Below, piece after piece: positions 9,070-31,578 of a DNA stretch of 33,033 bases (position 1 is its first letter; each line of letters starts with the position of its first letter). A program made the translations under genes and the position numbers. The stretch is taken from the IMG/VR virus record IMGVR_UViG_3300017758_000060, positions 1 to 33,033 of that record; one strand, 5' to 3'. This stretch comes from a virus. The notes below the pieces were generated by a model. That model worked only from the letters and a program-made list of their open reading frames with translations, did not search any database and was not told where the DNA came from.

Positions 9070-9841
9070 AATAAACGTTTTGCGTAATCAATATAACAAC
9101 TGTCCTAACCTAATTTTAAGTTTTCCTCGTTGTGGTCGAACATGGATGAAACACTTGTTTGCACACTACATTTCTAGACAATGGAATGTTGAATTTAGTA
9201 AATGGGTCGACAGACCACGATCCGGAATGCCTGGTATACCGAGAATCTTATTTAGGCACGATTGGATGAGTGTCACAGGACATATACCATGGAAAGAATA
9301 TTTTGAAATGCAGGACAGCAGAAAATTTTATTTTGAAACTGAAATGAAGTTGCAGAATATTGTGTATCTTGTAAGAGATCCGCTTGATGTGTTGTTTAGT
9401 TACTGGCCATATTTGCAAAGCATACCATACAAAGATTTTACTTGTCCACAACACACAGACATAATTGATTTTGCAAGAAACAAACAATGGGGACTAGATA
9501 TTATTATAAACTTTATGAATTTACAACTAGATCATATGGCACTACACCAAGGCAGAAAGTTGTTTATTAAGTACGAAGACTTAAAAAAAGAAGATAGTGC
9601 TTGGGAAAAACTTCTTATGTTTGTGTTCAAAGATTGCGATAAAGATTCGTTAGAATATGCCAAAGAACAAACAACATGGGAAAAAATGAAAGAAAAAAAT
9701 AATAAAGAAGTGCCAGATGAATTAAAATTTTATAGACGTGGCGGATCAAATTATATTTCTGAATTACCAAAAGACCAACAGGATGTTTTATTGAACTGGC
9801 CAGGGTTACAGAATTTAAATAAAAGGATAAATGAAAATTAA
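9059..9841 (+). CDS. Sulfotransferase
   Basis: A 260-aa protein with the two PAPS-binding signatures of sulfotransferases. The 5'-phosphosulfate loop SFPRCGRTWMK is at residues 21-31, and the 3'-phosphate motif in VYLVRDPLDVLFSYW is at 102-116. A C-terminal RRGGSNYI segment resembles the R-K-G region that closes over PAPS. The reaction is sulfate transfer from PAPS to a hydroxyl or amine. In this neighbourhood a carbohydrate acceptor is the likeliest reading, but that is inference. It starts inside the end of the AsnB-like gene (11-base overlap) and overlaps the following transferase by 11 bases. Confidence 0.85.
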   Translation: MHHRINVLRNQYNNCPNLILSFPRCGRTWMKHLFAHYISRQWNVEFSKWVDRPRSGMPGIPRILFRHDWMSVTGHIPWKEYFEMQDSRKFYFETEMKLQNIVYLVRDPLDVLFSYWPYLQSIPYKDFTCPQHTDIIDFARNKQWGLDIIINFMNLQLDHMALHQGRKLFIKYEDLKKEDSAWEKLLMFVFKDCDKDSLEYAKEQTTWEKMKEKNNKEVPDELKFYRRGGSNYISELPKDQQDVLLNWPGLQNLNKRINEN

Positions 9842-10712
9842 AGTCATCACATCATATAAGCCTGGCTGTTGGGAACAGTACGGCAAAAAAGGTATTGAAT
9901 CAATGGCCGAGCAATTTCCAAAAGAAGTTGATATAGTAGTATATGCAGAAGAACCAAAACCTGAATGCAAATACGATAGGATTCAGTGGATAGATCTAAA
10001 CACCGCTGAGCCGGAATTGTTTAAATTTAAGAACAGACACAACAACGATCCTGTTGCAAACGGAGAATTAGATGAAATAGAAGGCGGAGTGAGGAGGCCC
10101 GAAGAATTGAAAACTAAAGGCGGTAAGGATGCCACAAAGGGATCTTACCTGTGGGCGGCAGTACGTTTTGCTAATAAAGTTTTTTGTGTTGTAAACGGTA
10201 TACGTAATTCTAAAGATTATGACTACGTGGTATGGATAGACGGAGATACATTTTCGTTCAGGCCAATACCAATAGACTTTTTTAAAAATTTATTACCAGT
10301 AGATACAATGTTAACATACCTAGGAAGAGAAAATCCAAAACTAAATGACGGTGGGAAGTATCCAGAATGTGGTTTTGTAGGATATAACTTGAAACATCCA
10401 GAAATACAAAATTTTATTGATGACTGGGAAAAACTTTACATAACCGACGAAGTATTCAAATTATTGGAATGGCATGACTCTTATGTATTCTGGCACTTAT
10501 CAAAACAATACAGACGTGAAAGAAATATCAAAGTAAACGATATAGGATATTGGAAAGGTGTGAAAGGACATCATGTTTTTGTTAATAGTGAACTAGGAGA
10601 GTACATGGACCACATGAAAGGAAAACGCAAAAAGACAGGATCGTCTGCACGTAGTGACCTACGTTCGGCACCTACTGTTGACTACTGGAAGAAAGTACCA
10701 CCGGCCTTATAA
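9831..10712 (+). CDS. GT-A-like glycosyltransferase
   Basis: A 293-aa protein. KIKVITSYKPG opens it like a nucleotide-sugar-binding strand. YVVWIDGDTFSFRPIP (about 136-151) is a clear DxD-type metal site, and ECGFVGYNLKHP (about 181-192) fits the next core strand of GT-A folds. The C-terminal 50 residues are basic (KGKRKKTGSSARS) and may contact an anionic acceptor. It belongs to the same operon-like run as the sulfotransferase (11-base overlap) and a GT-B-like gene (TAATG overlap). Donor and acceptor are unknown. Confidence 0.7.
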   Translation: MKIKVITSYKPGCWEQYGKKGIESMAEQFPKEVDIVVYAEEPKPECKYDRIQWIDLNTAEPELFKFKNRHNNDPVANGELDEIEGGVRRPEELKTKGGKDATKGSYLWAAVRFANKVFCVVNGIRNSKDYDYVVWIDGDTFSFRPIPIDFFKNLLPVDTMLTYLGRENPKLNDGGKYPECGFVGYNLKHPEIQNFIDDWEKLYITDEVFKLLEWHDSYVFWHLSKQYRRERNIKVNDIGYWKGVKGHHVFVNSELGEYMDHMKGKRKKTGSSARSDLRSAPTVDYWKKVPPAL

Positions 10713-11584
10713 TGAGAATAGAAGTTTGGACAGATTACGGACCACAGAACTCTAAAGATATCTTTAAAAAATTTATCACATCCTTAAGAAATGCAGGAGA
10801 AGATGTTAGAATAAACGAAGAGTGCAACGCAGATGTGGCGGTTATATGGTCAGTGCTATGGCGTGGACGAATGGAAGGATATAAAAGAATTTGGGACAAA
10901 TACAGAAAAGCAGGAAAGCCTGTAATTGTTTTAGAGGTCGGCGGTTTAAGAAGAAATGAAAGTTTCAAGATAGGTATCAATGGTATAAACAGAGATGCAG
11001 ATTTTGCCAATCAAATATTTGACGATAAACGTTGGCCATTATTCAAACATAAACTAAGGCCATGGAATCCCACTGGAGATATCATAGTAATATGTGGCCA
11101 ACATGATTCTTCTGATCAATGGAAAGGCCTTCCTCGAATGGGACAATGGATACAACAACAAATAAAAGAAATTAGACAATATACAACAAGGCCTATACTT
11201 GTACGACCGCATCCACGTAATAATATAGACTTTAAAGAATCAAAATTTGAAAATGTCAAAGTTAGACATCCTAAAAGAGATTTCAGAACATATGACGATA
11301 CTGATTTCAAAGCAACATTAGAAAGAACATGGGCAGTAGTAAATCATTCTAGTAATCCTGCCATGGAGGCAGTGATAAAAGGTGTTCCTGTGTTTGTATC
11401 AGAGTCTAGTCTCTGCCACGATGTAGGCAATATAAACCTTGCAGAGATAAACACACCTGCTATGCCAAACAGAGTATCGTGGGCAAATAAACTTGCATAC
11501 ACAGAATGGTTTCCAGATGAGATAGAACAAGGACTACCATGGGTTAGAATTAAAGCAAGACTTGAAGAAAAATATTTAAAATGA
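10712..11584 (+). CDS. GT-B-like glycosyltransferase, family copy 4 of 4
   Basis: A 290-aa protein. The shared blocks appear as IIVICGQHDSSDQW, IRQYTTRPILVRPHPR, WAVVNHSSNPAMEAVIKG, VPVFVSES, LAEINTPAMPNR and KLAYTEWFPDEIEQG. It is closest in these blocks to copy 3 (RPHP, PNR/PDR). The N-terminal domain (DVAVIWSVLWRGRM; VIVLEVGGL) carries Rossmann-like strands. Function as a sugar or sugar-phosphate transferase is inferred from the GT-B-like pattern. It is tied to the next gene by a four-base ATGA overlap at 11581-11584. Confidence 0.65.
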   Translation: MRIEVWTDYGPQNSKDIFKKFITSLRNAGEDVRINEECNADVAVIWSVLWRGRMEGYKRIWDKYRKAGKPVIVLEVGGLRRNESFKIGINGINRDADFANQIFDDKRWPLFKHKLRPWNPTGDIIVICGQHDSSDQWKGLPRMGQWIQQQIKEIRQYTTRPILVRPHPRNNIDFKESKFENVKVRHPKRDFRTYDDTDFKATLERTWAVVNHSSNPAMEAVIKGVPVFVSESSLCHDVGNINLAEINTPAMPNRVSWANKLAYTEWFPDEIEQGLPWVRIKARLEEKYLK

Positions 11585-12330
11585 AAACTGTAAAAATTGG
11601 CGGTAAGCCGGAAATACATCCTATTGAATGGACACCATATGCAGGTGAAACTATTGTATTGAATACAATAATACGTAAGGGAGAACGTATACAAGAAACA
11701 GGATTTTTCGAAGATAGGGTAAAAGCAGTACCTAGAGGAAATGCGTACTGTATAGGTAACGGGCCTTCACGTAAAGGATTTGATCTAAACAAACTAAAAG
11801 CAACAGGACAGACATATGGTTGTAATGCATTGTACAGAGACTTCATGCCTGACTTTATTTTTTCAGTGGACACTAAGATCACTGTTAAAATGTGTGAAGA
11901 GGAAGTAGGACTTAAGACCATACACTATGCACCGTCACTCGAAGTTAATAGAAAACAAAGCAAAGGCATGTTACATCTCATTCCTTACAATCCACACTGG
12001 ATATCAGGTAATGCCGCATTCTGGACAGCAGGTGTGCATGGACACAGAAATATCTATCTGTTAGGTTTTGATTTTAAGGAATACGGCAAAGGGCAATTGA
12101 ATAACATATATCAAGATTCAGAATTTTACGGTCCACGTAATGATGACAAAACCTTTGAAGGTTGGCTCAAACAATTCAGAGACATGTTAAAAATGCGACC
12201 GTATATCAATTACACTGTGGTACATGACAATCCCCCAGAATATCTAAATCATTTACAAACAGGTACTGACTTAGGCAACAGTAAGATTATAAGTTATGCT
12301 GAATTTGAAAAGGTACTAACACCTAGTTAG
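11581..12330 (+). CDS. Sialyltransferase GT42/GNGPS-motif-like protein
   Basis: A 249-aa protein with YCIGNGPSRKGFDLNKL (about 57-73), TYGCNALYRDFMPD, and ISGNAAFWTAGVHGHRNIYLLGFDF (about 141-165). The order GNGPS, then CN..Y, then SG...A...G...IYL.G.DF is the pattern I know from CstI/CstII-type sialyltransferases (GT42) and related DUF115-like proteins. The catalytic detail and donor cannot be confirmed, so this is a fold-level call. It closes the plus-strand sugar run. Its last 15 bases overlap the end of the SprT-like gene on the other strand. Confidence 0.55.
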   Translation: MKTVKIGGKPEIHPIEWTPYAGETIVLNTIIRKGERIQETGFFEDRVKAVPRGNAYCIGNGPSRKGFDLNKLKATGQTYGCNALYRDFMPDFIFSVDTKITVKMCEEEVGLKTIHYAPSLEVNRKQSKGMLHLIPYNPHWISGNAAFWTAGVHGHRNIYLLGFDFKEYGKGQLNNIYQDSEFYGPRNDDKTFEGWLKQFRDMLKMRPYINYTVVHDNPPEYLNHLQTGTDLGNSKIISYAEFEKVLTPS

Positions 12331-14206: not shown

Positions 14207-15673
14207 ATGAGTAGTTGTAAATTAATAATAAAAGACGAAGTAAATGTGAAATTTGAGAATCTATCTCTCGAATGGCGTAAGAGATTATCTAATAAATTTA
14301 AATTCGAAATACCATATGCTAGACATCTACCCGCTGTAAAACTAGGGAGATGGGATGGCAAAGTAAGTTTTTTTGGTCTGGGTGGCACAACATATCTAAA
14401 TCTAGTTGATCAAATAATTCCAATATTAGATGAGGGAGGCGTCTATATAGATGTCGAAGACCAAAGAGATAAACACGATTTCGAATTTAAAAAAGTAGAT
14501 AAAAACTATCTATCACACATAACATGGCCGGACACTCATCCTTGTGCAGGGCAACCTATAGAATTACGAGACTATCAAGTAGAGACTATCAATAAGTTCA
14601 TAGAGAATCCGCAAAGCATACAAGAGATAGCCACCGGAGCAGGTAAGACCATAATTACTGCGGCACTATGCCAATTGGTTGAACCATATGGACGGACAAT
14701 CACTATTGTTCCAAACAAAAGTCTTGTTACACAAACAGAAGAGGACTTTCTAGCATGTAACTTAGACACAGGTGTTTACTATGGTGACCGTAAAGAAGTC
14801 GGAAGGTTCAACACAATAGCAACATGGCAGAGTCTAAATGTTCTCGAGAAGAAGGCAAAAAATGAACACAGCACTGAGTTTAAAGAATTCTGCGATGGCA
14901 TACAGACTGTGATCATTGACGAAGTACACATGGCAAAGGCAGATGTGTTGAAGAGATTATTAACAGGACCATTTGCACATTGTGGTATACGTTGGGGGCT
15001 GACAGGTACAGTTCCAAAAGCAGATTATGAGTTTATGGGATTGAAATGTAGCATAGGTGAAGTTGCAAATAGAATACGAGCAAGTGAACTACAAGACAAA
15101 GGTGTACTTGCAAACTGTCATGTAAATGTTTTACAGACACAGGACCATCCACAGTTTAAAACATACGCAGAAGAATTAAAATGGCTAACAACAAACCCAA
15201 CAAGAATGACATGGGTAGCAAATACAATCAAGGATATAGCGACTTCAGGTAACACGCTTATATTAGTAGATAGAATCTCGGCAGGTGAGATGCTTGAAAA
15301 GAAAATAAAGGATTCTGTATTTGTTTCAGGATCAACTAAAAACATGGATAGAAAGGAGCAATACGATGAAATATCTACTGCAACAAATAAAGTTATTATT
15401 GCCACATATGGAGTTGCCGCTGTTGGCATTAATATTCCTAGGATTTTTAATCTTGTTCTCATAGAACCAGGCAAGTCCTTTGTGAGGGTAATACAATCAA
15501 TCGGGCGTGGTATAAGAAAAGCAGAAGACAAGGATAGTGTACAGATATGGGATATTACCAGCAGTTGCAAATTTGCGAAAAGACACCTGGGTGCAAGAAA
15601 AAAGTTTTACAAAGAGGCCAATTACCCGTATAATATAGAAAAGATAAATTATGAAAATCCTTACACTGGATAA
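14207..15673 (+). CDS. uvsW: UvsW-type superfamily 2 helicase
   Basis: At 488 aa it is close to T4 UvsW. Helicase motifs in order: RDYQ (121-124, Q-motif region), Walker A ATGAGKT (142-148), DEVH (238-241), GLTGT (264-268) and QSIGRGIRK (430-438). The N-terminal 110 residues form the substrate-binding domain seen in UvsW (RLSNKFKFEIPYARHLPAVKLGRWDGKVSFF). UvsW unwinds branched DNA and R-loops and helps switch from origin-dependent to recombination-dependent replication. It is coupled to the unknown gene upstream and overlaps the next gene by 23 bases. All motifs are intact. Confidence 0.93.
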   Translation: MSSCKLIIKDEVNVKFENLSLEWRKRLSNKFKFEIPYARHLPAVKLGRWDGKVSFFGLGGTTYLNLVDQIIPILDEGGVYIDVEDQRDKHDFEFKKVDKNYLSHITWPDTHPCAGQPIELRDYQVETINKFIENPQSIQEIATGAGKTIITAALCQLVEPYGRTITIVPNKSLVTQTEEDFLACNLDTGVYYGDRKEVGRFNTIATWQSLNVLEKKAKNEHSTEFKEFCDGIQTVIIDEVHMAKADVLKRLLTGPFAHCGIRWGLTGTVPKADYEFMGLKCSIGEVANRIRASELQDKGVLANCHVNVLQTQDHPQFKTYAEELKWLTTNPTRMTWVANTIKDIATSGNTLILVDRISAGEMLEKKIKDSVFVSGSTKNMDRKEQYDEISTATNKVIIATYGVAAVGINIPRIFNLVLIEPGKSFVRVIQSIGRGIRKAEDKDSVQIWDITSSCKFAKRHLGARKKFYKEANYPYNIEKINYENPYTG

Positions 15674-16154: not shown

Positions 16155-16383
16155 AAGAACAATCAAGATAGAAGCACCTATAATGATTACTTCAGACAAG
16201 ATAGCAGTTTGGATGGACCAAGGTGAATGGGCCATGGATTTCTTTGATTGGTTATCTAAAGCGAAATTAAACAATAAACTTTCAGGTTTACAACACCTGA
16301 ACAGTAAAATAAAATTAACATTTGTAACAGCAGAAGACTGTACAATGTTTGGATTAAAATATGCCGGAAAAAGAAAAAAATAA
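16138..16383 (+). CDS. Small hypothetical phage protein
   Basis: An 81-aa protein with a basic N-terminus (MARSGRRTIKIEAP) and a basic C-terminus (AGKRKK). Between them is a short aromatic helix (VWMDQGEWAMDFFDWLSKAKL). There is no signal peptide or known motif. It overlaps both neighbours (17 bases upstream, 23 downstream), in keeping with a translationally coupled cassette from uvsW to the zinc-finger protein. It is likely a real gene because it fills a coding gap exactly in this overlap style. Confidence 0.65.
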   Translation: MARSGRRTIKIEAPIMITSDKIAVWMDQGEWAMDFFDWLSKAKLNNKLSGLQHLNSKIKLTFVTAEDCTMFGLKYAGKRKK

Positions 16384-16819
16384 AAGAAAATTTTTTGAAC
16401 TTAGAAACGGATTAAAAGCCGTGGACTTCAGGAACAAAGATTACTTTGATAGGATTGACGACAAGGAAAAATCTTTGTATTCTCCGTACATGCTGATGAG
16501 ATATGTATCAAGCACATCATCGAAAGATCAATTTTATGTTGAACATTATGTAGAGATGGTCAACGAATGTGTGAACAAACACTGCTTTACATTAGGTAAA
16601 CATAAAAAACTTTTATGGATACTCACTGCTATGTGTGGATCACTTCAACAACAATTTCATCCATGGATTAAACCAATGAAGCGAGTACCAAATAAAAGTC
16701 TAAAAAAACTACAAGAAATATATCCAACCTGGAAGGAATCGGATCTGGAAACATTAGACAAAGTGATATCGGATAAAGAATTAGAAGAGTTGTTGGAGGC
16801 ACATGGTATCGAAGTATAA
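16361..16819 (+). CDS. Probable gp62-like clamp-loader small subunit
   Basis: A 152-aa, all-helical protein. The order SPYMLMRYVSS (about 41-51), FYVEHYVEMVNE (about 58-69), a helix ending HPWIKPMKR, and a C-terminal acidic tail (ISDKELEELLEAHG, about 137-150) resembles marine T4-like gp62. In that family a Y-P-x-x-x-N-R-x-x-S block is followed by a basic W-x-K block and a short helical tail. gp62 works with gp44 to load the gp45 sliding clamp. Neither gp44 nor gp45 lies in this window, so context does not confirm it. The alternative is an unrelated conserved phage protein. Confidence 0.5.
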   Translation: MPEKEKNKRKFFELRNGLKAVDFRNKDYFDRIDDKEKSLYSPYMLMRYVSSTSSKDQFYVEHYVEMVNECVNKHCFTLGKHKKLLWILTAMCGSLQQQFHPWIKPMKRVPNKSLKKLQEIYPTWKESDLETLDKVISDKELEELLEAHGIEV

Positions 16820-17486
16820 ATGTACTTACTGCGGTAAAGAATTCACAAAAGAACGAACACTACAAGTGCATATGTGCGAACCAAAGAGAAGATATCTCCA
16901 ACGAGATGAGAAATGGGTAGTCAATGCATTCATGGTGTTTCAACGATTTTACCAAATACATCAACACAATTCAAAAACAAAGACCTATGATGATTTTGTA
17001 AAAAGTCCTTACTATAATGCTTTTGTTAAGTTTGGTCGATTCATTATGCATATCAATCCGTTGTATCCAGAGAAGTATATAGAGTTTGTGTTAAAATCAA
17101 AAATTAAATTAGATCACTGGGCCAGAGATGACCTATACGAAACATACTCGATCGAAGCAATAAAAAGCGAACCTGTAGAGGCCGCACTGCAAAGAAGTAT
17201 CACAACAATGATGGATTGGGCATCTGAACAAAATGCACAGTGGTCGGACTACTTCCGATTAGTTAACACAAACAGAGCCGTCCAACATATACAGCAAGGA
17301 AAAATAAGTCCATGGTTACTGTTAGGTTGCAGTGCAGGGAAAAGGATGTTAAAATCATTTAACGACGAACAATTACAAATGATTGAAAAATTTATAAACA
17401 CAAGTTTTTGGCCAAGCAAGTTAAAGAGCTATCCTGCTGATTTAATGCTGGTACAGGACACAGCAAAGGAGGCCAAGATTGTCTAA
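16803..17486 (+). CDS. C2H2 zinc-finger phage protein, unknown function
   Basis: A 227-aa protein. Residues 5-25 form a C2H2-like finger (YKCTYCGKEFTKERTLQVHMC): Cys-x2-Cys, then 12 residues, then His with a nearby Cys. After it comes a long helical domain with conserved-looking blocks YDDFVKSPYYNAFVKFGRF (about 60-78) and KIKLDHWARDDLYETY. The finger suggests nucleic-acid or protein binding. I recall similar finger-plus-helical proteins in marine T4-like phages, with no assigned function. It is coupled by a 17-base overlap to the gp62-like gene and by eight bases to the next gene. Confidence 0.75.
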   Translation: MVSKYKCTYCGKEFTKERTLQVHMCEPKRRYLQRDEKWVVNAFMVFQRFYQIHQHNSKTKTYDDFVKSPYYNAFVKFGRFIMHINPLYPEKYIEFVLKSKIKLDHWARDDLYETYSIEAIKSEPVEAALQRSITTMMDWASEQNAQWSDYFRLVNTNRAVQHIQQGKISPWLLLGCSAGKRMLKSFNDEQLQMIEKFINTSFWPSKLKSYPADLMLVQDTAKEAKIV

Positions 17487-17712: not shown

Positions 17713-17825
17713 TGTTTTATATTCGAAAATTTTTAACAAAGAATAACTTACTTGGTATCATTTACATAGGTGTATTCATATATCTACTAGCACTTCTATT
17801 AAATAATTTGCAAGGAACAATATAA
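17712..17825 (+). CDS. 37-aa single-pass membrane protein
   Basis: This short frame reads MFYIRKFLTKNN, then a hydrophobic stretch (LLGIIYIGVFIYLLALLLNN, residues 13-32), then LQGTI. Basic residues before the helix predict an N-in orientation. Its ATG follows directly on the upstream stop (TGATG) and its TAA overlaps the ATG of the next gene (TAATG). It therefore fits the coupled cassette precisely, and this is the main reason to accept it. Function unknown; small phage membrane proteins often act on the host envelope. Confidence 0.6.
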   Translation: MFYIRKFLTKNNLLGIIYIGVFIYLLALLLNNLQGTI

Positions 17826-18415
17826 TGCCTGATGTAGATATAGATTTTTTTGACAGAGATAACACGCTAAAACTTTTTAAGCATACACCTGCCACTATGA
17901 TCAAGGATGGTAAATCTGAGAAACATAAAACAGGAGTTTACTTTCATGCTGTTCCGGAACATCCAGTAACAGGACACGCAAGTCTCGATTATAAAAATGC
18001 AGAGGACCGAGGGTACTTCAAAATAGATTGCTTGAATGTGAACATATACAAGGATGTCAAGTCGGAACAAGAACTTGTTGAGCTTATGATACAGGAGCCG
18101 GACTGGGATATGTTGAAAGATCCAAAAGTGGTAGAAAACCTTTTTCACCTAAATGGCCATTTTAACATAGTATCCAAGTTGGAACCTAAAACTATAGAAC
18201 AACTTGCGGCTGTGTTAGCAATAATAAGACCTGCCAAAAGGGGACTGATGTACAAGGATTGGACAGATATAATCAAAGAAGTTTGGATCAAACCAACAGA
18301 CGGTAGTTACTTCTTTAAAAAATCACACGCAGTGGCATATGCTCAAGCAATCGTTGTGCAGATGAATTTGATGAACAGAGCTAAATATAGTTTTGATGCA
18401 CCATCAAAAAACTAA
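17825..18415 (+). CDS. Miniature DnaE (Pol III alpha)-like protein
   Basis: A 196-aa protein that reads like a compressed bacterial DnaE palm. PDVDIDF (2-8) matches the PDxDxDF motif, with Asp5 and Asp7 equivalent to E. coli Asp401 and Asp403. HKTGV (34-38) matches the KHAGGV block. GYFKIDCL (63-70) matches GLVKFDFL, with Asp68 in the place of Asp555. LEPKTIEQLAAVLAIIRP (119-136) matches the ALFRPGP helix, and FFKKSHAVAYA (163-173) matches FNKSHSAAYA. The PHP domain, the rest of the fingers, and the clamp- and tau-binding regions are absent. DnaE-type enzymes synthesise DNA; whether so small a form can is unknown. It follows the 37-aa membrane gene by TAATG overlap. Confidence 0.7.
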   Translation: MPDVDIDFFDRDNTLKLFKHTPATMIKDGKSEKHKTGVYFHAVPEHPVTGHASLDYKNAEDRGYFKIDCLNVNIYKDVKSEQELVELMIQEPDWDMLKDPKVVENLFHLNGHFNIVSKLEPKTIEQLAAVLAIIRPAKRGLMYKDWTDIIKEVWIKPTDGSYFFKKSHAVAYAQAIVVQMNLMNRAKYSFDAPSKN

Positions 18416-18542
18416 AAAAATAAAATCCAAAAAACGTAAGAAGAAAACTCCCAATCGAGATTGGTTCAACAATGCTTATGATCCAACCAATCCTTTGACG
18501 ATATACTTTGCAAAGTATATTAATAAAGACGGAAAAGTTTAA
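18396..18542 (+). CDS. 48-aa basic hypothetical protein
   Basis: A short frame from ATG 18396 overlaps the end of the DnaE-like gene by 20 bases. It begins with a very basic run (MHHQKTKKIKSKKRKKKTPN) and continues RDWFNNAYDPTNPLTIYFAK, ending YINKDGKV. The second half looks like real protein rather than noise, and the frame fills the gap up to the opposite-strand gene exactly. Nucleic-acid binding is suggested by charge only. Confidence 0.5.
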   Translation: MHHQKTKKIKSKKRKKKTPNRDWFNNAYDPTNPLTIYFAKYINKDGKV

Positions 18543-18913
18543 ACAGGTCTTCTTACTAATTGAATAGTTCTTCTTTTCACCCGTTTCTTTGAAATTTCAG
18601 AAAGTTTAACAGTGGGTCCGTGTACTATTTCCACATCCTTGGAGTTCAAAGTGACCAATGTTGATCGGAAATACTTGAAGTCACCTTTGAGAAATATGTT
18701 GATCGGTAACTTACGATTAGACTCGTGCCACCAAATTTCGCCACTTTTCAAAAACTTCATCTTGTCTTGTGGCATCATGATCCTACCGTAGTCATAGAAA
18801 CTGATGACGTTGGTGTCCTCGTTCTGCACTATGCCCACATACTCTAGATCGCCTTTTCGGATAAGGCTTAGAAATGGGAACTTGTCCCTCAATGTGTTAA
18901 AAATCTCGTTCAT
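18539..18913 (-). CDS. Conserved-type T4-like phage protein, unknown function
   Basis: A 124-aa protein with blocks FPFLSLIRKGDLEYVGIVQNED (about 12-33), SGEIWWHESNRKLPINIFL (about 57-75) and a basic tail (KKRVKRRTIQLVRRPV). I recall proteins with a very similar WWxESNRxxPINIFL core in marine T4-like phages, always without a function. It is the only minus-strand gene in this block. It is transcribed away from the structural gene at 18946 across a 32-base spacer and meets the 48-aa frame tail to tail with a four-base overlap. Confidence 0.75.
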   Translation of the reverse strand: MNEIFNTLRDKFPFLSLIRKGDLEYVGIVQNEDTNVISFYDYGRIMMPQDKMKFLKSGEIWWHESNRKLPINIFLKGDFKYFRSTLVTLNSKDVEIVHGPTVKLSEISKKRVKRRTIQLVRRPV

Positions 18914-19744: not shown

Positions 19745-20758
19745 ATGAACCTGATCCAATCTACTATTCTGACAAGCCTACCTGCGGGTAGGAAAAAAAC
19801 ACCAAGTGGTTGGATTTCTTTCAACGCTCCTTGTTGTGTACATAACGGCGAAACTGCTGACAAGAAAAAACGTGGAGGGATAATGGCCGGTGCCGATGGC
19901 ACAGTCAGTTATCACTGTTTCAACTGTGGATTCAAAACAAGTTATGTGACGGGAAGAAAACTAACTTACAAGATGAGACAGTTCATGGGATACATTGGCA
20001 TACCCGACGACACAATACGTAAATTGGCCATAGAGGCCATGCGTGAAGAAGAGGGTGACGTAAAATATGAGAAGAAGAAATTCGTAACATTCAAAAACAA
20101 GACACTGCCCAAGAATGCACACAAACTGGACGTGTGGTTGGAGAAGTATATGGCCAACGATCTTACAGAACCACAATGGAACAAGATAGATGGATTATTG
20201 AAATATCTGGAAAGCAGAGGCATTGGTGCTGACTGGTATGACTTCATGTATTCACCTGATAAAACATGGGATATCTATCAAAGGTTACTGATACCGTTTT
20301 ACTGGCGAGGTGAGGTGGTTGGATTCACAGGTAGGATGTTTGAGGAGTCCCAAGGCGTGAAGTACTACACAGACGTGTGGCCTGGTTATGTGTTCAACAT
20401 GGATGTACAGGACTGGACAAGAAAGTTTGTGATAGTCACTGAAGGACCATTTGATGCGATAGCCGTTTCTGGTGTGAGCATACTGGGATCGGAGATAAAT
20501 GATACACAAAGAGAGTTGATAGATGCACTGGGCAGACAAGTTATAGTTGTGCCAGATAGAGATGCACCAGGAGAGAAACTGATTAACCAAGCAATAGAAT
20601 TTGGGTGGAACGTTGCTTTTCCAGAATGGGATAAAACGGTTGGCGATGTGGCGGATGCTGTGTTAAAATATGGTAGACTGTTTACTATACAATCGATACT
20701 GAAAACAACAGAATCAAGTAAACTGAAAATAGATTTAAAGAGAAAGATGTATGGCTGA
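19745..20758 (+). CDS. 61: DNA primase, T4 gp61-like
   Basis: At 337 aa this matches T4 gp61 (342 aa). The N-terminal zinc site is CCVHNG (C30, C31, H33) with HCFNCGF (C58, C61). The TOPRIM domain has VTEGPFDAIAVSG (231-243, catalytic Glu233) and VVPDRDAPGE (268-277, Asp271 and Asp273). The primase makes RNA primers for lagging-strand synthesis in a complex with the gp41 helicase, whose gene follows with an eight-base overlap. There is no good Shine-Dalgarno; ATG 19745 lies ten bases after the structural gene. Confidence 0.9.
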   Translation: MNLIQSTILTSLPAGRKKTPSGWISFNAPCCVHNGETADKKKRGGIMAGADGTVSYHCFNCGFKTSYVTGRKLTYKMRQFMGYIGIPDDTIRKLAIEAMREEEGDVKYEKKKFVTFKNKTLPKNAHKLDVWLEKYMANDLTEPQWNKIDGLLKYLESRGIGADWYDFMYSPDKTWDIYQRLLIPFYWRGEVVGFTGRMFEESQGVKYYTDVWPGYVFNMDVQDWTRKFVIVTEGPFDAIAVSGVSILGSEINDTQRELIDALGRQVIVVPDRDAPGEKLINQAIEFGWNVAFPEWDKTVGDVADAVLKYGRLFTIQSILKTTESSKLKIDLKRKMYG

Positions 20759-22175
20759 ATACACATTTGATGTACAAAAACTTTATATAGAGATGCTTCT
20801 TGCAGACGCAGAATCGTTTGCTAGGGCACAGAATATATTCAAACCAGAGTCGTTTGATCGTAAGTTGCAACCTATTGCAAAATTTGTCAAAGACTACATG
20901 GATGAATACAAGGTCATGCCTGATGTAGAACAGGTGAACGCAAAACATGATATAAAATTAAAATCAGCAAAAGATTTAGATCCTAGCCACTTCAATTGGT
21001 TGTTGGACGAATTTGAAACTTTTTCGAGACACAAGGCACTAGAACATGCGATACTTCAATCAGCGGACTTGCTGGAGAAGGGTGACTATGCTCCTGTTGA
21101 GGACATGGTCAAGGACGCAGTCAATGTTGGACTGACACGTGATCTTGGTACAGACTACTTTGAGGATCCGAAAGGAAGACTTGAGGCACTCAAGGCAAAC
21201 AACGGACAGATCAGCACTGGCTGGAACAACTTAGACAAGAAACTGTTTGGCGGTTTCAATCGTGGAGAACTAAACATCTTTGCAGGCGGATCAGGCGCAG
21301 GTAAGAGTTTGTTCTTGCAGAATCTTGCAGTTAACTGGGCACAGGCTGGTCTGAACGTTTGTTACATATCTTTTGAATTAAGTGAGCAACTGACTGCCAT
21401 GAGATTGGATGCAATGATGACTAACATTCCAACTAAGAAAGTTTTTCCAGAGATAGATAATGTTGAAATGAAGGTGAAGATGCTGAAGAAGAAATCAGGA
21501 AACTTGCAGATCAAATACTTGCCTAGTGGTAGTAACGTGCTAGACGTGAGAACATATCTTAAAGAACTAGAGCTCAAGAACAAAAAGAAAATAGATTGTA
21601 TCTTGATTGACTACTTGGATCTAATGATGCCAAAAAGCAAAAGGATAAGTCCAGCGGATCTGTTCATAAAAGACAAGTATGTGTCTGAGGAACTGAGGAA
21701 CTTGGTTGTTGAGAAACAGTGTGTGTTGGCCACTGCCTCACAGTTGAACAGGGCAAGTGTTGAAGAGATAGAGTTTGATCACTCTCACATCTCAGGCGGA
21801 CTGTCCAAGATACAGACAGCAGACAACGTGATAGGTATATTCACAAGTAGAGCAATGAAAGAACGTGGCAGATATCAAATACAGTTCATGAAAACTAGAA
21901 GTAGTAGTGGAGTGGGACAAAAAGTAGATTTAGAATTTGACGTGGACAGTTTAAGAATAAGAGACCTAAATGAGGAAGAAGCACAAAGTTATAATCAGCA
22001 AAGTAAAAATAAAATATACGATTCGTTAAAGCAAACATCAAAAGTATCCGGCAGTGACACACCTGAAGTTCCGGATCCACGGAAGGGTGATCCGTTAGGT
22101 AAAGTGAAGGGTACTGTCGAAGGTGGAAAACTGAGACAGTTGCTAAACGAATTACACTCAGACGAAGAACAGTAG
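20751..22175 (+). CDS. 41: Replicative DNA helicase, T4 gp41/DnaB-like
   Basis: At 474 aa it is almost exactly T4 gp41's length. The N-terminal helical domain (about 1-130) is followed by a RecA-type motor: Walker A GGSGAGKS (179-186), YISFELSE (205-212, H1a-like Glu), Walker B IDCILIDYLDLM (281-292), ATASQLNRASVEE and ISGGLSKIQTADNVIGI. gp41 is the hexameric 5'-3' helicase at the fork and works with gp61. The C-terminal about 75 residues are Lys/Glu/Ser-rich and probably flexible. The gene that follows overlaps by one base (TAGTG) but belongs to an accessory function. Confidence 0.93.
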   Translation: MAEYTFDVQKLYIEMLLADAESFARAQNIFKPESFDRKLQPIAKFVKDYMDEYKVMPDVEQVNAKHDIKLKSAKDLDPSHFNWLLDEFETFSRHKALEHAILQSADLLEKGDYAPVEDMVKDAVNVGLTRDLGTDYFEDPKGRLEALKANNGQISTGWNNLDKKLFGGFNRGELNIFAGGSGAGKSLFLQNLAVNWAQAGLNVCYISFELSEQLTAMRLDAMMTNIPTKKVFPEIDNVEMKVKMLKKKSGNLQIKYLPSGSNVLDVRTYLKELELKNKKKIDCILIDYLDLMMPKSKRISPADLFIKDKYVSEELRNLVVEKQCVLATASQLNRASVEEIEFDHSHISGGLSKIQTADNVIGIFTSRAMKERGRYQIQFMKTRSSSGVGQKVDLEFDVDSLRIRDLNEEEAQSYNQQSKNKIYDSLKQTSKVSGSDTPEVPDPRKGDPLGKVKGTVEGGKLRQLLNELHSDEEQ

Positions 22176-22903
22176 TGAAAAAATGTATAGTTCAATTTTG
22201 GATACAAGCGGATCATTATAGCGAACCTGACTACAATGAACTTTTAAAGAAAAGCAAAGAGTTCGATGCAGACGAGTTTGCTAATCGTAGTGCTAGGAGT
22301 TTTGAAACATATGCAAACAAATACAATCACGACTTTGTAAGAGTTACAGAAAAGAAATTAAATTACAAACATCCTACATTCGAAAGATTTGATATATGGC
22401 TAGACGATTCTTGGTGGGAAAAGTATGACGAAATTATGTACGTGGACAGTGATGTATTCGCTATGCCAAACGCACCGGATATATTCGCAGAGTATCCTGA
22501 CCAAAATACATTGAAGGTTTGCGAACATCCAGGATTCCAAAAAGCAGAAAGTGAGGCACAGATAAAACATATCTATCACGGTATACTAAAAGAATGTTTA
22601 CTAGAACAAGTGAAGCAGTGTGGCTTCCAAGCCGGTGTTTTTATTGTTACTAAAAAAGCAAGAGATATAATGAAAACGTACATCGCAAAATACAAAGAAC
22701 TGAACGACCACGATGGGCACATCCTGTTATGGTCCACAATCAAAAGCGGTGTGCCAATAACACGAATGACCAGATTGTTCAATTATAAAAATGCTCACTT
22801 TAGCGGTAGACCGCCTGTGCATTTCTTTCATGCCGCGGGGCACAAAAAATCAACACAATACCATAGTATAAATTCGTTTCTGAATAAAAACGCACTCAAA
22901 TAA
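22175..22903 (+). CDS. GT-A-like glycosyltransferase (paralogue of 2257-2955), GTG start
   Basis: A 242-aa protein with CIVQFWIQADHY, KHPTFERFD (about 65-73), WWEKYDEIMYVDSDVFAMP (about 79-97, DxD metal site) and FQAGVFIVTKKARD (about 150-163). Every block has a counterpart in 2257-2955. The start is GTG at 22175, sharing a base with the TAG of the helicase gene; no ATG is available before the conserved VQFW. Its position directly behind the replicative helicase is odd for an accessory gene and suggests late insertion, or shared early expression with the replication genes. Confidence 0.75.
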   Translation: MKKCIVQFWIQADHYSEPDYNELLKKSKEFDADEFANRSARSFETYANKYNHDFVRVTEKKLNYKHPTFERFDIWLDDSWWEKYDEIMYVDSDVFAMPNAPDIFAEYPDQNTLKVCEHPGFQKAESEAQIKHIYHGILKECLLEQVKQCGFQAGVFIVTKKARDIMKTYIAKYKELNDHDGHILLWSTIKSGVPITRMTRLFNYKNAHFSGRPPVHFFHAAGHKKSTQYHSINSFLNKNALK

Positions 22904-22937
22904 CACATTTTTAATTGGTGAGAGCCGTGGATGTTGG

Positions 22938-22943
22938 TAAATA
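22938..22943 (+). promoter_or_regulatory. Possible late promoter box TAAATA with strong ribosome-binding site downstream
   Basis: GGTAAATAA at 22936-22944 contains a TAAATA core. A start near 22949 would give a leader of about 38 bases carrying AAGGAG at 22975-22980, ahead of ATG 22987. The 83-base spacer holds no gene. This is the only transcription unit here with a real leader, a strong ribosome-binding site and a terminator. Confidence 0.4.
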
Positions 22944-22986
22944 ACTGCAACGTTTTAAATTAAATTGAAATACAAGGAGAAATTCA

Positions 22987-23910
22987 ATGAAAAACATCAT
23001 ATGGTTAATAGCACACCAACCAGAAAGACTGTTCCTAAGAACAGCAAAAGCGTTTGCAAAAATGCTTGAGAAAGAAACTAACGAAATCAAAATTGAGATA
23101 CTGACAACTGAACAATACAAGGAAAAATACGATCCTTCTTTCAGCAGAGAAAAGATTTTTGATTTAGTTAAAGATAACGTAATTCAAATGTCTCAGACAG
23201 AAGTATGGGAACTTGAAAGTTTGACACATGACAAAAACTGGCTAGTCTTTGACATGCCATGGTTATTCAAAAGTCATAGTCATGCAAGAAGAGTTCTTGA
23301 AGGTAAGATCGGTGCACAAATGAATAAAAGGTTAGCAAAACAGAGCGGAGTTAGAGGTCTTGCTTACACTTATTCAGGTGGATACAGATGTGTAGGATCA
23401 AAAGTTCTAATCAAAAACTTATCTGAGTTGCAAACAAGAAAACTAAGAGTTAACTCTAATCCAGTAACACAGGACTATTGGAAGTCGCTTGGTGTTGAAG
23501 TAACAAATCAAAATGTACACTTTGGTAGCAACGATCCCGTATTACCTGAGGACATACATGGTAAAGATACAACATACATCAGATACGAAAAAGCAGATGC
23601 ATGGTTACACACAGAACACTCTTTATTTTTAACAAACATTCTAGCAAGTGAGAAATTCTTTAACACTCTATCTGCAGACATGCAAGAAACATTTAAAAAA
23701 ATTGCATTCGAGGCGGCTAGACTAGAAAGAAAATGGTCTCAAGAAGACGCTGAAAATTTTGTTGAAACAGCAAAAGAAAGAAATGTACCAATCACAGAAT
23801 TATCCCAAGAGGACAAAGAAGTGATGAAAGAAAAATCAAAAACTGTATACGAAAAATGGTCTAAGGTTTTCTTCCCTGGTTTAATTGATGGTATCAATAA
23901 ATTAGCATAA
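22987..23910 (+). CDS. TRAP (DctP-type) solute-binding protein without signal peptide
   Basis: A 307-aa protein with the DctP ground plan: FLRTAKAFAKMLEKETNEIKIEIL (about 16-39), VIQMSQTEVW (about 65-74), VFDMPWLFKSHSHARRVLEG (about 87-106), GVRGLAYTYSGGYR (about 120-133) and LRVNSNPVTQDYWKSLGV. Then come FLTNI and a helical C-terminus. TRAP binding proteins carry organic acids in the periplasm to DctQM. Here the sequence starts directly at the first mature-type strand, with no signal peptide. It should stay in the cytoplasm or be packaged. The usual GVVDG-E substrate segment is not recognisable (IHGKDTTYIRYEKA instead). It has its own ribosome-binding site and terminator. Confidence 0.7.
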   Translation: MKNIIWLIAHQPERLFLRTAKAFAKMLEKETNEIKIEILTTEQYKEKYDPSFSREKIFDLVKDNVIQMSQTEVWELESLTHDKNWLVFDMPWLFKSHSHARRVLEGKIGAQMNKRLAKQSGVRGLAYTYSGGYRCVGSKVLIKNLSELQTRKLRVNSNPVTQDYWKSLGVEVTNQNVHFGSNDPVLPEDIHGKDTTYIRYEKADAWLHTEHSLFLTNILASEKFFNTLSADMQETFKKIAFEAARLERKWSQEDAENFVETAKERNVPITELSQEDKEVMKEKSKTVYEKWSKVFFPGLIDGINKLA

Positions 23911-23929
23911 TCTTTTTATATATTACAAG

Positions 23930-23957
23930 AAAGGCGGCCACGGTCGCCTTTTTTTGT
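23930..23957 (+). terminator. Rho-independent terminator after the TRAP-type gene
   Basis: AAAGGCGGCC and GGTCGCCTTT pair with one G-T wobble around a short loop and run directly into a tract of Ts. This is a textbook intrinsic terminator and the only clear one in the window. It isolates the TRAP-type gene from the following operon. Confidence 0.85.
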
Positions 23958-23975
23958 GGCTATTAGAGTGTAAGT

Positions 23976-23983
23976 TAAATATT
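23976..23983 (+). promoter_or_regulatory. Late-type TAAATATT box abutting a start codon
   Basis: TAAATATT lies at 23976-23983, followed by AGT and ATG 23987. With T4 late geometry (start six bases after the last A of TAAATA) transcription would begin exactly at the A of the ATG. It comes straight after the terminator, so a new unit must start here. Confidence 0.45.
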
Positions 23984-23986
23984 AGT

Positions 23987-24577
23987 ATGAAGTTATCTAA
24001 ATATTTAAACTGGCTTGATTCTGAAGAATTCGATTATTATTCAGACACAATAAAATTCGCCGACCACAACCAACCGGGACACACTTTCGTTAAGAATGTG
24101 AGACTACCGCAACTAGACTTCATTAAAAAAATTACCACCCAACCTAGAGCAGATGGCAAGGACCTGGAGAACGTATATACTTACGGTAGACATCCAATGT
24201 TGGATGTATGGGCAGATAAAACGTTTCCAGAATTAAAATACAAGCAGACACTTGTACAACTGCAAAGACCTGGAGACAAAGTGGATCCACATGTTGATAC
24301 CTTACACGGACAAATACGTAGTTGGATTGAAAAGGAACCGGAACTTGGTAATATAGAACACTCCATGGAAAATCCAAATCCAAATTTTAAAGCAAGAAGA
24401 TATTTTATAGGTGTGGAAGACCATGTCGCAGGACAAATGTTCAAACTAAACAATGTAGAATGGATATGGAAGAAAGGAGATACCATATCTCTGAATGTGT
24501 GGCGTGGTGTACATAATACTTTCAATGCAAGTAATGTGGATAGATACATAATAAAAATTACAGGATTAGAAAAATGA
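23987..24577 (+). CDS. 2-oxoglutarate/Fe(II) oxygenase-like protein
   Basis: A 196-aa protein with a double-stranded beta-helix signature. HVD (His102-x-Asp104) and a distal His176 (RGVHNTF) would bind iron, and Arg186 (DRYIIKITG) sits where 2-oxoglutarate is held. YFIGVEDHVAGQMF forms the middle strands. Such enzymes hydroxylate proteins, nucleotides or small molecules; the substrate is unknown. I start at ATG 23987, because an in-frame TTG at 23954 lies in the T-tract of the upstream terminator. It overlaps the methyltransferase-like gene by four bases (ATGA). Confidence 0.7.
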   Translation: MKLSKYLNWLDSEEFDYYSDTIKFADHNQPGHTFVKNVRLPQLDFIKKITTQPRADGKDLENVYTYGRHPMLDVWADKTFPELKYKQTLVQLQRPGDKVDPHVDTLHGQIRSWIEKEPELGNIEHSMENPNPNFKARRYFIGVEDHVAGQMFKLNNVEWIWKKGDTISLNVWRGVHNTFNASNVDRYIIKITGLEK

Positions 24578-25194
24578 ACCTAGAAAAAATATGGCATCAG
24601 TTCTCCCCTAGGCAGTACAGTTATCTAGGCGACATTGTTGGAAATTCAAGTGCCAAGAGTGTTTGTGAAATAGGAGCGTTCTGTGGCGGCGTTGCTAGGG
24701 CAGTATGGCAAGGAATAAAAGATACGGATAAAGAATTATATCTTATAGACAACTATGCATTTCTTCCAGAGCGTTTTAGAAAACATTTCTTCAAAGCAGT
24801 AAAGAAAACTATATCAAACAGCGACAGGATACACATGCTGTTGGAAAACAGTCACGAGTACGACTGGACAAAGCACGACTTCTTAATATTTTCTCATGCG
24901 GATTTTGATCATATGGAAAAAGATTTTGACCGACTGTTAGATTCAAAAGTAAAATGGGTAGCACTCGATTTGCCCAAGGGTTGTTTCAAGAGAACAGCAA
25001 AAATGCTAGATGCAATTACAAACAAAAAATTATTCCCCAGTTATTATGTCGACGGTATGATAATCTGCGGGCCGACGACTCCTTGCACTTTGCCTACACA
25101 AGAAGGAACTTTTCTAGGACACAAGGTAAGATATGTTGAAAAGAAAAAAGGTTCATACAACAAAGCAGTAGAAGACATAGTAAAAAATTTGTAA
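24574..25194 (+). CDS. Class I SAM-dependent methyltransferase-like protein
   Basis: A 206-aa protein. SVCEIGAFCGGVARAVW (about 29-45) is a motif I-like Gly-rich SAM loop. KELYLIDNYAFLP (about 53-65) ends in the acidic residue expected to hold the SAM ribose, and HDFLIFSHADFDHMEKDFDRLL (about 99-120) and VKWVALDLPKGCF follow in Rossmann order. This fits the Methyltransf_24-like group, which often acts in sugar and natural-product loci. Substrate unknown. It is coupled to the oxygenase-like gene upstream and to the radical SAM gene downstream (TAATG). Confidence 0.6.
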   Translation: MNLEKIWHQFSPRQYSYLGDIVGNSSAKSVCEIGAFCGGVARAVWQGIKDTDKELYLIDNYAFLPERFRKHFFKAVKKTISNSDRIHMLLENSHEYDWTKHDFLIFSHADFDHMEKDFDRLLDSKVKWVALDLPKGCFKRTAKMLDAITNKKLFPSYYVDGMIICGPTTPCTLPTQEGTFLGHKVRYVEKKKGSYNKAVEDIVKNL

Positions 25195-26369
25195 TGACTA
25201 AATGTAATCGGCCAACGTTGGATGTAACAATATCACCTGACGGTAATTTTAGAATTTGTTGTTACGGTACTACGTTGGGAAACATCGAGGGACAAACCAT
25301 ACGAGAATTTTTCAACAGTGATGCAGTAAAAGAAATCAGCAATACTTTGAACAGTGGCACACGTCATTCTTACTGTTCTGCATGTTGGAACCTCGAGGAC
25401 CTAGGACATGATTCTTATAGATTAGTAAGCGAGCCTTACAAAAGCGAAGGAGGATTTCCTGCCATGCTTGATATAAAATTTAATAATATTTGCAATCTTG
25501 CTTGTAAAATGTGTGACCCTGTGTCGTCAAGCAAACTTGCTACCGAATGGAAACAACTAGGGTGGACAGATCAAAACACACCTTATCTAGACACAAATTC
25601 AAAAACAATATTGCCGGATTGGCAAAATACAAATTATCAAACTAACAAAATTAATAAGATATGGGATGAAATTATAGACAATATAAAATTTGTAAAAAGA
25701 ATAAAGTTTACAGGAGGCGAACCATTCATGACCAAAGAAATATTACAATTTCTTAAACGTATTCCTGTTGAGGACAGAAAACATATAGATCTTGCATGGA
25801 CCACAAACGGTACACAAGACTTGAGTATTTGGGAATCGACTCTGCTGACTTTTAAAAAAAATAGGATAGGAATAAGTTGCGATGGCGAGCAGGACACATA
25901 CAACTACATAAGATATCCTGGTACTTGGACAGAATGGCTAGAAAGTTCAAAAAAAATAATGGACAAATATCAATCACATATAAATTTTACAGTCACAGTT
26001 TTTAATATCTTTAATTTAAAAAAATTTGTTTCCTGGGCAAAAACAAACGGTTATCTGAACAAACTTAGATTTGCATATGAAAATATTCCTCTAGTATATG
26101 CTCCAATGGTACTGCCTAGATACCTACGTGTAAGAGCGGTAGAAGACATAATGTATGCAATAAAGAACATGGACAAGTCAGAAGTAAGAATGCAACTACG
26201 TGCTATTGCAGATCACTTGCACAGTATCAACGATGATGTACATGACAAACACTGGCATCATTTTCTCAAGATCACACACCAACAAGACAAGCACAGGGAT
26301 ATGAGCATAGCAAACATATGGCCCGATGTGCCAGAAATTCGAGAGCGTAAATTACCAAATACAGCGTAA
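25194..26369 (+). CDS. Radical SAM protein with N-terminal twitch/SPASM-like cysteines, copy 1
   Basis: A 391-aa protein. CNLACKMC (C100, C104, C107) is the CxxxCxxC cluster motif for the SAM-cleaving [4Fe-4S] centre; FTGGEPFMTKE (GGEP 174-177) and DLAWTTNGTQ follow as expected. Before it, C4, C22, C23, C61 and C64 (ICCYG, CSACWNLEDLGHDSYR) look like an auxiliary iron-sulfur site of the twitch/SPASM type placed N-terminally. Such enzymes modify peptides, sugars or tRNA by radical chemistry. It follows the oxygenase and methyltransferase genes with tight coupling. Substrate unknown. Confidence 0.85.
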   Translation: MTKCNRPTLDVTISPDGNFRICCYGTTLGNIEGQTIREFFNSDAVKEISNTLNSGTRHSYCSACWNLEDLGHDSYRLVSEPYKSEGGFPAMLDIKFNNICNLACKMCDPVSSSKLATEWKQLGWTDQNTPYLDTNSKTILPDWQNTNYQTNKINKIWDEIIDNIKFVKRIKFTGGEPFMTKEILQFLKRIPVEDRKHIDLAWTTNGTQDLSIWESTLLTFKKNRIGISCDGEQDTYNYIRYPGTWTEWLESSKKIMDKYQSHINFTVTVFNIFNLKKFVSWAKTNGYLNKLRFAYENIPLVYAPMVLPRYLRVRAVEDIMYAIKNMDKSEVRMQLRAIADHLHSINDDVHDKHWHHFLKITHQQDKHRDMSIANIWPDVPEIRERKLPNTA

Positions 26370-26378
26370 GTTAAGAAA

Positions 26379-26393
26379 TAACGCGAAGCGTTA
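26379..26393. repeat. Very short stable hairpin with GCGAAGC core
   Basis: TAACGC-GAA-GCGTTA forms a perfect 6-bp stem with a GAA loop, and its centre is GCGAAGC, known as an exceptionally stable DNA mini-hairpin. It lies just after the first radical SAM gene. No T-tract follows on the plus strand, so it is not a standard terminator. Confidence 0.6.
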
Positions 26394-26433
26394 AAAAGCG
26401 TAAAGCAGGCCTGACCTGAACGATAATTACCTT

Positions 26434-26445
26434 TATAAATGGGAG
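26434..26445 (+). promoter_or_regulatory. Late-like TATAAATG box and ribosome-binding site before a 58-aa frame
   Basis: TATAAATG (26434-26441) matches seven of eight bases of the T4 late consensus. It is followed at once by GGGAG (26441-26445), seven bases before ATG 26453. The 83-base spacer otherwise holds only the GCGAAGC hairpin. Confidence 0.4.
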
Positions 26446-26452
26446 TTACACA

Positions 26453-26629
26453 ATGGGCATACACTACGACTACAAGAGCACCAGGGGTGACAAGAAATTA
26501 CGTAAGCAACAGGAACGTGAGGAGCGAAGGCGTAAGAAGAAGCAGACAACAGTTGCCAAGCAAGACGAGTACACTGTGCCAGAAGACGTGGTGCTGACTC
26601 TGGACATGATCACGGACCCCAATAAATGA
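26453..26629 (+). CDS. 58-aa charged hypothetical protein next to a radical SAM gene
   Basis: The frame starts MGIHYDYKSTRGDKKLRKQQ, continues with a very basic stretch (EREERRRKKKQ), and ends with an acidic/hydrophobic tail (YTVPEDVVLTLDMITDPNK). GGGAG lies seven bases before the ATG, and the TGA overlaps the ATG of the next radical SAM gene (ATGA), so it is a good gene by context. It shares the raised GC content of that gene. A precursor-peptide role for radical SAM modification is conceivable but unsupported: there is no Cys, and no typical leader/core boundary. Confidence 0.6.
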   Translation: MGIHYDYKSTRGDKKLRKQQEREERRRKKKQTTVAKQDEYTVPEDVVLTLDMITDPNK

Positions 26630-27642: not shown

Positions 27643-28245
27643 GTCTAGAGGATCTTTCATTGGCATCGTGGCCAACATGATCCTAGGATACTTTGCATCG
27701 GGTCCGGGCATCACTCTGTGTGGGATCAAACTGTTGAACACTATGGGACATCGGTGCATGTTGTAGGCAACACGTAACGGATACAAGGTATCCACTGTTT
27801 CGTGTATGCTGGCAAGGTTGTAACACGCCTTGCCACTGAAATCGTTGATCTCCTCTGGAAATTTTTCTAGTTCATCAATGGGTATGTCATACCATTCTGT
27901 GTACACGTCGTCGGTGTTGAGTATGGGGAAATTTATTTTGAAGTTACGTTCCGGAGAACCATGGTGCAGTGCGAATCCTCCTGTCATGGATTCGGTCAAC
28001 ACTCCCACTGTTATCTCCTGCACAGGGATCTTCACGTGTCTAAAATACTTTATCAGTGCCGGACACGACCTTGCCATGCTCTTGTAATCTATTTGCATCC
28101 AGAATCCCTCAGACGTTTTGTCGTCTAAGAAATCAGTATTTTTTTCTACCCACTGCAGAACTTCTTTCTGAATATCTTTTAGATTGTATACAGGCAGTTC
28201 ATGTACTGCTTTATGTTTTGTTTGATCTCCTAAATAATCAATCAT
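27625..28245 (-). CDS. Double-stranded beta-helix (2OG-oxygenase/cupin-like) protein
   Basis: A 206-aa protein. The core reads GGFALHHGSPERNFKINFPILNTDDVYTEWYDI (about 88-120), then a strand region ending VFNSLIPHRVMPGPDAKYPRIMLATMP (about 169-195). A distal His followed by Arg on neighbouring strands is the arrangement of 2OG/Fe(II) oxygenases. The proximal HxD is not clear (HHGS instead), so activity is uncertain. Phage proteins of this general look are common next to sugar- or amino-acid-modifying genes. It reads away from the SDR gene across a 43-base spacer containing a long inverted repeat. Confidence 0.5.
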   Translation of the reverse strand: MIDYLGDQTKHKAVHELPVYNLKDIQKEVLQWVEKNTDFLDDKTSEGFWMQIDYKSMARSCPALIKYFRHVKIPVQEITVGVLTESMTGGFALHHGSPERNFKINFPILNTDDVYTEWYDIPIDELEKFPEEINDFSGKACYNLASIHETVDTLYPLRVAYNMHRCPIVFNSLIPHRVMPGPDAKYPRIMLATMPMKDPLDLMQLS

Positions 28246-31466: not shown

Positions 31467-31469
31467 TTT

Positions 31470-31545: not shown

Positions 31546-31578
31546 AAACCAACCAAATGTTCCAAGACCATTAAGTTC

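Follow-up and report, generated by a model that had tools for sequence, protein, structure and literature searches.

In the window, that is the whole stretch of 33,033 nucleotides of viral DNA that was analysed, a gene encoding a 196-residue protein of the phrog_11778 family was surrounded by a T4-like recombination and replication neighbourhood with UvsW-like, primase and helicase genes (Table 1). By reading of the sequence, the gene started with an ATG codon, and an in-frame stop was located 7 codons upstream of it. The product was predicted to be the C-terminal half of a split family C polymerase and is called the C-half below, and the second chain, encoded by a separate gene in relatives, is called the N-half. 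The residues of E. coli DnaE were numbered from the translation of its own gene.

Table 1. Features of the C-half locus and motifs within its product. Counts give the loci in which the neighbouring gene held the stated place.
Feature	Positions	Strand	Remarks
UvsW-like recombination helicase	14207..15673	+	5' of the C-half in 54/56 loci
C2H2-zinc-finger protein (N-terminal finger), phrog_11058	16803..17486	+	5' of the C-half in 138/140 loci
AAGGA, probable ribosome-binding site	17812..17816	+	8 bases 5' of ATG, from the sequence
C-terminal, Mg2+- and template-binding half of a split minimal family C polymerase (predicted)	17825..18415	+	196 aa, phrog_11778
PDVDIDF, residues 2-8	17828..17848	+	D5 and D7 = E. 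coli DnaE D401 and D403
HKTGVY	17924..17941	+	H34 and G37 do not vary within the family; probably corresponds to DnaE HAGGV (E. coli H511), matched by eye
KIDCL, residues 66-70	18020..18034	+	K66 and D68 = E. coli DnaE K553 and D555
IRPAK, residues 134-138	18224..18238	+	counterpart of FRPGP, end of the first fingers helix; R135 = E. coli R639
FFKKSHAVAYA, residues 163-173	18311..18343	+	counterpart of DnaE FNKSHSAAYA; H168 = E. coli H760
Opposite-strand neighbour, phrog_11637	18539..18913	-	just after the C-half in 122/124 loci
Toprim/DnaG-like primase (gp61-like)	19745..20758	+	3' of the C-half in 42/44 loci
Replicative helicase, gp41/DnaB-like by homology to the annotated gene of relatives	20751..22175	+	3' of the C-half in 42/44 loci

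The phages XacN1 and RAS14 were the sole exceptions to the gene order around the C-half. The zinc-finger protein encoded upstream may be regarded as a candidate partner of the C-half. A neighbouring gene at 16361-16819, which the sequence-only reading had called gp62-like, could not be confirmed as such, its sole match being phrog_11758, a family of unknown function. A gene for a SprT-like metalloprotease (PF10263; 12316-12792, minus strand) adjoined the recombination genes. The replication block was flanked by long runs of glycosyltransferase-, asparagine-synthase- and radical-SAM-like genes (500-12330 and 22175-31067, assigned by eye), which differed among the sister contigs. Additionally, three tRNA genes, namely Glu(ttc), Ala(tgc) and Thr(tgt), were clustered at 31392-31692 on the minus strand.

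Homology of the 196-residue protein to DnaE

The motifs claimed in the sequence-only reading (PDVDIDF, KIDCL, the RP end of a helix and FFKKSHAVAYA) were all found at the claimed residues and in the order of DnaE, and D5, D7 and D68 aligned with its three catalytic aspartates. The claimed compaction was also right in outline. The D7-H34 spacing, which corresponds to the thumb, was 27 residues as compared with 108 in E. coli DnaE, and the R135-H168 spacing, which corresponds to the fingers, was 33 residues as compared with 121. The N-terminal PHP domain, the thumb and the full fingers with the RRAMGKK segment were absent from the protein. The chain stopped soon after the KSHxxxY helix, and the clamp-binding, OB and tau-binding regions were absent. 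At the other end, the chain started at the DxD strand, and no GS motif was present in the same chain.

The search against the PHROG profiles matched residues 3-187 of the protein to phrog_11778, annotated as 'DNA polymerase', with E=4.4e-65, and gave weak matches to phrog_405 and phrog_12219, which are families of full-length polymerases. The expected profile similarity to Pol III alpha was obtained when a family profile was used and not with the single sequence. The single-sequence matches to Pfam DNA_pol3_finger (E=0.04) and NCBIfam TIGR00594 (E=0.5) were both under their cutoffs, and phmmer of the protein against the PDB returned nothing but one irrelevant transcription factor; therefore, family profiles were needed. 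The profile built from ten sequences matched six PDB chains up to E=10, all of them Pol III alpha with the motifs in order, and the best E was 0.05. The hhalign comparison of the C-half alone with DnaE was weak, with a probability of 9-21% and E of about 0.001-0.003.

The AlphaFold model of the C-half was calculated from an input alignment of 43 window and IMG/VR sequences and had a pLDDT of 89.1 and a pTM of 0.72. Strands were predicted at residues 4-8, bearing D5 and D7, and at residues 67-71, bearing D68; these aspartates are likewise carried by strands in the palm of DnaE. The resemblance to the DnaE palm anticipated from the sequence was borne out when the model was compared with the PDB by Foldseek: the best 14 matches were all Pol III alpha or PolC, and the next match had a probability of 0.04. 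The match to 5lew had a probability of 1.00 and a TM of 0.53 by query length; the Foldseek E-values were modest, the best being 1.7e-3. Among the BFVD viral models, the best 20 matches had a probability of at least 0.77 and the 21st of 0.04, and the named entries among these 20 were nearly all DNA polymerases. The earlier claim of homology to the family C palm was backed by the profile, the fold and the motif order, and the assignment of the protein to family C rests on the family profiles, the fold and the partner described below.

Relatives of the C-half were detected by tblastn in 90 phage records, 89 of which covered at least 80% of the protein, with an identity below 60% in all cases; they also occurred in at least 432-463 IMG/VR stretches. 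Ten phage homologues that shared 36-54% identity with the window protein were aligned, and 12 residues were invariant (D3, D5, D7, H34, G37, K66, D68, R135, P136, K138, H168 and Y172). The DxDID and KxDxL motifs were present in all 166 intact C-half homologues, a set that excluded the locus L146, where the gene was split into two frames. Against 36 usable members of its clade, the window C-half had a median dN/dS of 0.03, at nearly saturated dS. A search sensitive to close relatives only, covering 84,980 genomes of bacteria and archaea, gave no confirmed relative of the C-half.

The N-half and the position of the split

The active site of DnaE also needs the GS-motif helix, which lies just before the DxD strand. 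In relatives of the window phage, the N-half was a separate protein of about 175 residues (170-180 aa), phrog_11127. It was aligned by hhalign to residues 323-396 of E. coli DnaE, and GxGRGS was present in all of the 131 N-halves found. The best eight PDB matches of the N-half model (pLDDT 90.3) were all Pol III alpha. Further, PF07733 was found over its cutoff once per genome in nine of nine jumbo-phage records, at a place other than the C-half, and only the first third of the domain was covered.

The C-terminal end of the N-half read GVGRGSSVASYVLYLIGIHKVNSIKY.LD..EFLK or similar. In the 18 phages having both genes, the N-half always ended within three residues of 'EF[LF]x', and the C-half started a few residues before 'DxDID'. 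The joined N- and C-half profile of these phages was aligned across the junction to residues 208-781 of DnaE. Based on the split point and the alignment through the junction, it was concluded that the polymerase was cut inside the palm, between the triphosphate-binding and the metal-binding motifs. No natural fusion of the two halves was found in 166 C-half loci, where the longest in-frame upstream extension was 54 residues and contained no GS motif. The Mantel correlation between the N-half and the C-half was r=0.73, as any pair of genes passed on vertically would show.

One C-half and one N-half were present in each of the ten isolate records checked. All ten also encoded a family B polymerase, so the earlier statement that T4-like phages replicate with such an enzyme was true of the relatives. 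One of the ten was the complete circular 141-kb genome of the Alishewanella phage Slicko01 (L329, OQ508956); therefore, the split pair was not confined to jumbo phages. Escherichia phage Sharanji, which grows on E. coli K-12 MG1655, encodes both halves. A GroES-like gene was located at a median distance of 449 bp 3' of the N-half (within 4.5 kb in 124 of 127 loci), and the gene for the clamp-loader small subunit (gp44) at a median distance of 1.8 kb 3' (within 4.5 kb in 118 of 127 loci). The order of N-half, GroES-like co-chaperonin and clamp loader (e.g., L213:7770-10095, with the N-half at 7770-8306 and a C-half, L266, on the same contig) was nearly fixed, and there was no obvious reason for a chaperonin at this place. 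The published gene numbers (CBB_328 and CBB_332; Atu_ph07 gp316 and gp312) agreed with the gene order.

The C-half and a family B polymerase, but not the N-half, were found in G004 and G006, large uncultured contigs of 280 kb and 221 kb. They were rejected as examples of genomes with a C-half and without an N-half, since the whole cluster of N-half, GroES-like and clamp-loader genes was absent. Hence, that region of the genome was missing from the contigs.

The N-half was not found in the 33-kb window or in any contig of its own clade, all of which were fragments. Nor was it found in 28 contigs carrying the C-half, where the only match was a single-chain DnaE. A family B polymerase was not seen in the window, itself a 33-kb fragment, or in the four searched fragments of its clade. 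The abundant N-half type of contig G026 was considered as the partner for this clade on the basis of an 80%-identical major-capsid-like protein. The link was rejected because the C-halves of the two long contigs having both that N-half and a C-half were only 52-53% identical, and the G026-type contigs were thus assigned to a sister clade. Judging from the relatives, the window's own phage probably encodes both an N-half and a family B polymerase.

Earlier reports and related polymerases

Iyer et al. 2021 (PMC7824862) described a 'minimal, split Pol III alpha' from jumbo phages of group 2.2, and phrog_11778 is probably the chain meant by that description. Since the split enzyme had been reported there, the window protein is a further, uncultured marine member of an already described polymerase. 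The gene was therefore not as unexpected as the sequence-only reading had suggested; many members of phrog_11778 also carry the RefSeq label 'DNA polymerase', and the Phosso record names a 'DnaE-like DNA polymerase III alpha'. The N-half had been noted earlier by the authors of the CBB and Atu_ph07 genomes as a truncated or short Pol III alpha. No report of an experimental test of the function of the split polymerase was found in the literature searched, and a split family C enzyme was not mentioned in the searched passages of a 2026 survey of bacterial DNA polymerases (PMC12926913). The present analysis adds the invariant split point, the replisome gene order, the 141-kb carrier genome and the extra single-chain PHP-less DnaE of some sister contigs.

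Like the group 2.2 enzyme, the window protein is a predicted C-terminal Mg2+- and template-binding chain without PHP, thumb and accessory domains, and it belongs to a T4-like phage setting with a family B polymerase in the relatives. Unlike that enzyme, it had neither a partner nor a family B polymerase within its 33-kb fragment. The window's uncultured marine clade was about 54% identical to the nearest isolates, Atu_ph07 and Phosso. E. coli DnaE (PDB 2hnh; also 5lew) was among the best fold matches and has D401/D403/D555, K553, RP and KSHxxxY in the same order, whereas the window protein has no PHP domain, GS-motif half or clamp- and tau-binding region, and its thumb and fingers are reduced. 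The family B replicase gp43 of T4 is likewise a DNA polymerase of T4-like phages and co-occurs with the split enzyme, but its fold is unrelated and it was absent from the window.

A compact phage DnaE of about 563 residues (phrog_405, E=1e-68) was encoded after the helicase in a sister contig (L122:14124-15815). Like the window protein, it has a family C palm and fingers and no PHP domain, but it is one chain with a complete set of motifs, a complete active site and RRAFAKK fingers, and it is encoded by a separate gene. The same gene was found in L126, L148, L113, L114 and L131; in these five contigs and L122 it lay about 4.4-6.2 kb 3' of the C-half, and it ran off the contig ends in L066, L085, L048, L067 and L074. 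In the window and in L115, the syntenic place was occupied by other genes, so that the single-chain DnaE is a variable second family C polymerase. The nearest deposited relative, with 38.6% identity, was encoded by the 484-kb uncultured phage LR756508, in which the N-half and C-half profile searches both matched only the single-chain DnaE gene. As the single-chain DnaE occurs together with the C-half in sister contigs, two distinct polymerases of the bacterial type may be present in some phages of the window's clade. A 23-codon match to the C-terminal end of this DnaE was observed at about the syntenic place in contigs otherwise without the gene (L092:11091-11159, L093:6649-6717 and L094-L096:11091-11159), perhaps as the scar of a deletion.

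Proposed function of the two chains

We proposed that the C-half and the N-half constitute a two-chain, stripped-down family C polymerase, most likely an accessory one at the fork; the probability of this reading was estimated at about 0.6. The N-terminal chain, as known from the relatives (phrog_11127), would provide the GS-motif helix that holds the incoming triphosphate, while the DxD strand and the third aspartate would come from the C-terminal chain, along with a short part of the fingers. The contact between the chains would lie in the natural loop that separates 'EFL' from 'DxDID', and the two would jointly rebuild one palm. The split enzyme has lost its PHP domain and thumb, the larger part of the fingers, and the regions that bind the clamp and tau. 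The assembled pair would most likely act as a low-processivity accessory DNA polymerase at the phage fork, beside the family B replicase, and be recruited by the primase-helicase and clamp-loader complexes. Gap filling, repair of Okazaki or recombination intermediates and lesion bypass are its candidate tasks. Bulk replication would be less plausible for an enzyme that has no thumb or clamp-binding regions and little of the fingers, and that coexists with a family B replicase. An argument against the two-chain polymerase is that, with the thumb, RRAMGKK and most of the fingers missing, what remains could be too little to grip a primer-template. We gave about even odds to the proposition that a polymerase with one active site split over two proteins, one bearing the GS helix and the other the metal-binding aspartates, is active in the replisome beside the family B replicase in very abundant marine and host-associated T4-like phages.

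If active, the pair, with about 370 residues in two chains as compared with 1160 in E. coli, would be smaller than any other family C polymerase that we know of. It would also represent a rare case of a single polymerase active site built from two separately encoded proteins. One could then test what leads T4-like phages to retain an additional polymerase of the bacterial type alongside a good family B replicase. The proposal of PMC7824862 that minimal forms of this kind are similar to the Pol III ancestor would become testable as well. The gene order points to the primase-helicase and the clamp loader as partner candidates.

The main rival reading, which we considered unlikely, is that the chains combine into a nucleotidyltransferase, built on the same palm, that has given up template-directed DNA synthesis and serves, for example, in end-tailing, in protein or RNA modification or in signalling. 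Such an enzyme would be consistent with what is missing, namely the thumb, the greater part of the fingers and the triphosphate-binding RRAMGKK segment, and with the metal-binding residues that are kept. The RP- and KSHxxxY-containing pieces of the DnaE fingers contact the template and the nucleotide. The retention of both pieces, and the gene order that ties both halves to the primase, the helicase and the clamp loader, argue against a non-polymerase function. The sequence-only reading had also offered the 196-residue protein as a minimal nucleotidyltransferase or a repair polymerase. A self-contained nucleotidyltransferase and a stand-alone polymerase were both rejected, because the protein lacks the GS-motif half of the palm, which is encoded as a second protein in relatives.

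An improbable further reading is that the protein works alone and without any catalysis, as a structural piece or a decoy whose fingers-like surface binds parts of the host or phage replisome. The lack of the GS-motif half, and of a visible partner in the window and in the fragments of its clade, speaks in favour of such a role. However, the metal-binding aspartates and K66 were kept in 166 of 166 intact homologues, the matching half was present in ten of ten isolate records, and the clamp- and tau-binding regions of DnaE, which would be the obvious decoy surfaces, were absent. The decoy or remnant proposed in the sequence-only reading was regarded as improbable, because the catalytic residues are invariant and purifying selection is strong.

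A partnership of the C-half with the single-chain DnaE in the window's clade, or its ongoing replacement by that enzyme, in place of a pairing with the N-half, appears very unlikely. The 563-residue gene does lie 3' of the C-half in six sister contigs, and the N-half was not found in the clade fragments. The single-chain enzyme, however, has a complete palm of its own, the window has no such gene at the syntenic place, and the C-half is paired with the N-half in other relatives. Finally, the notion that the protein is a decaying, functionless fragment of a once complete DnaE, of which only about 200 of 1160 residues are left, was refuted by the conservation data, namely the low dN/dS given above, the split point common to phages of very different hosts and the constant gene order.
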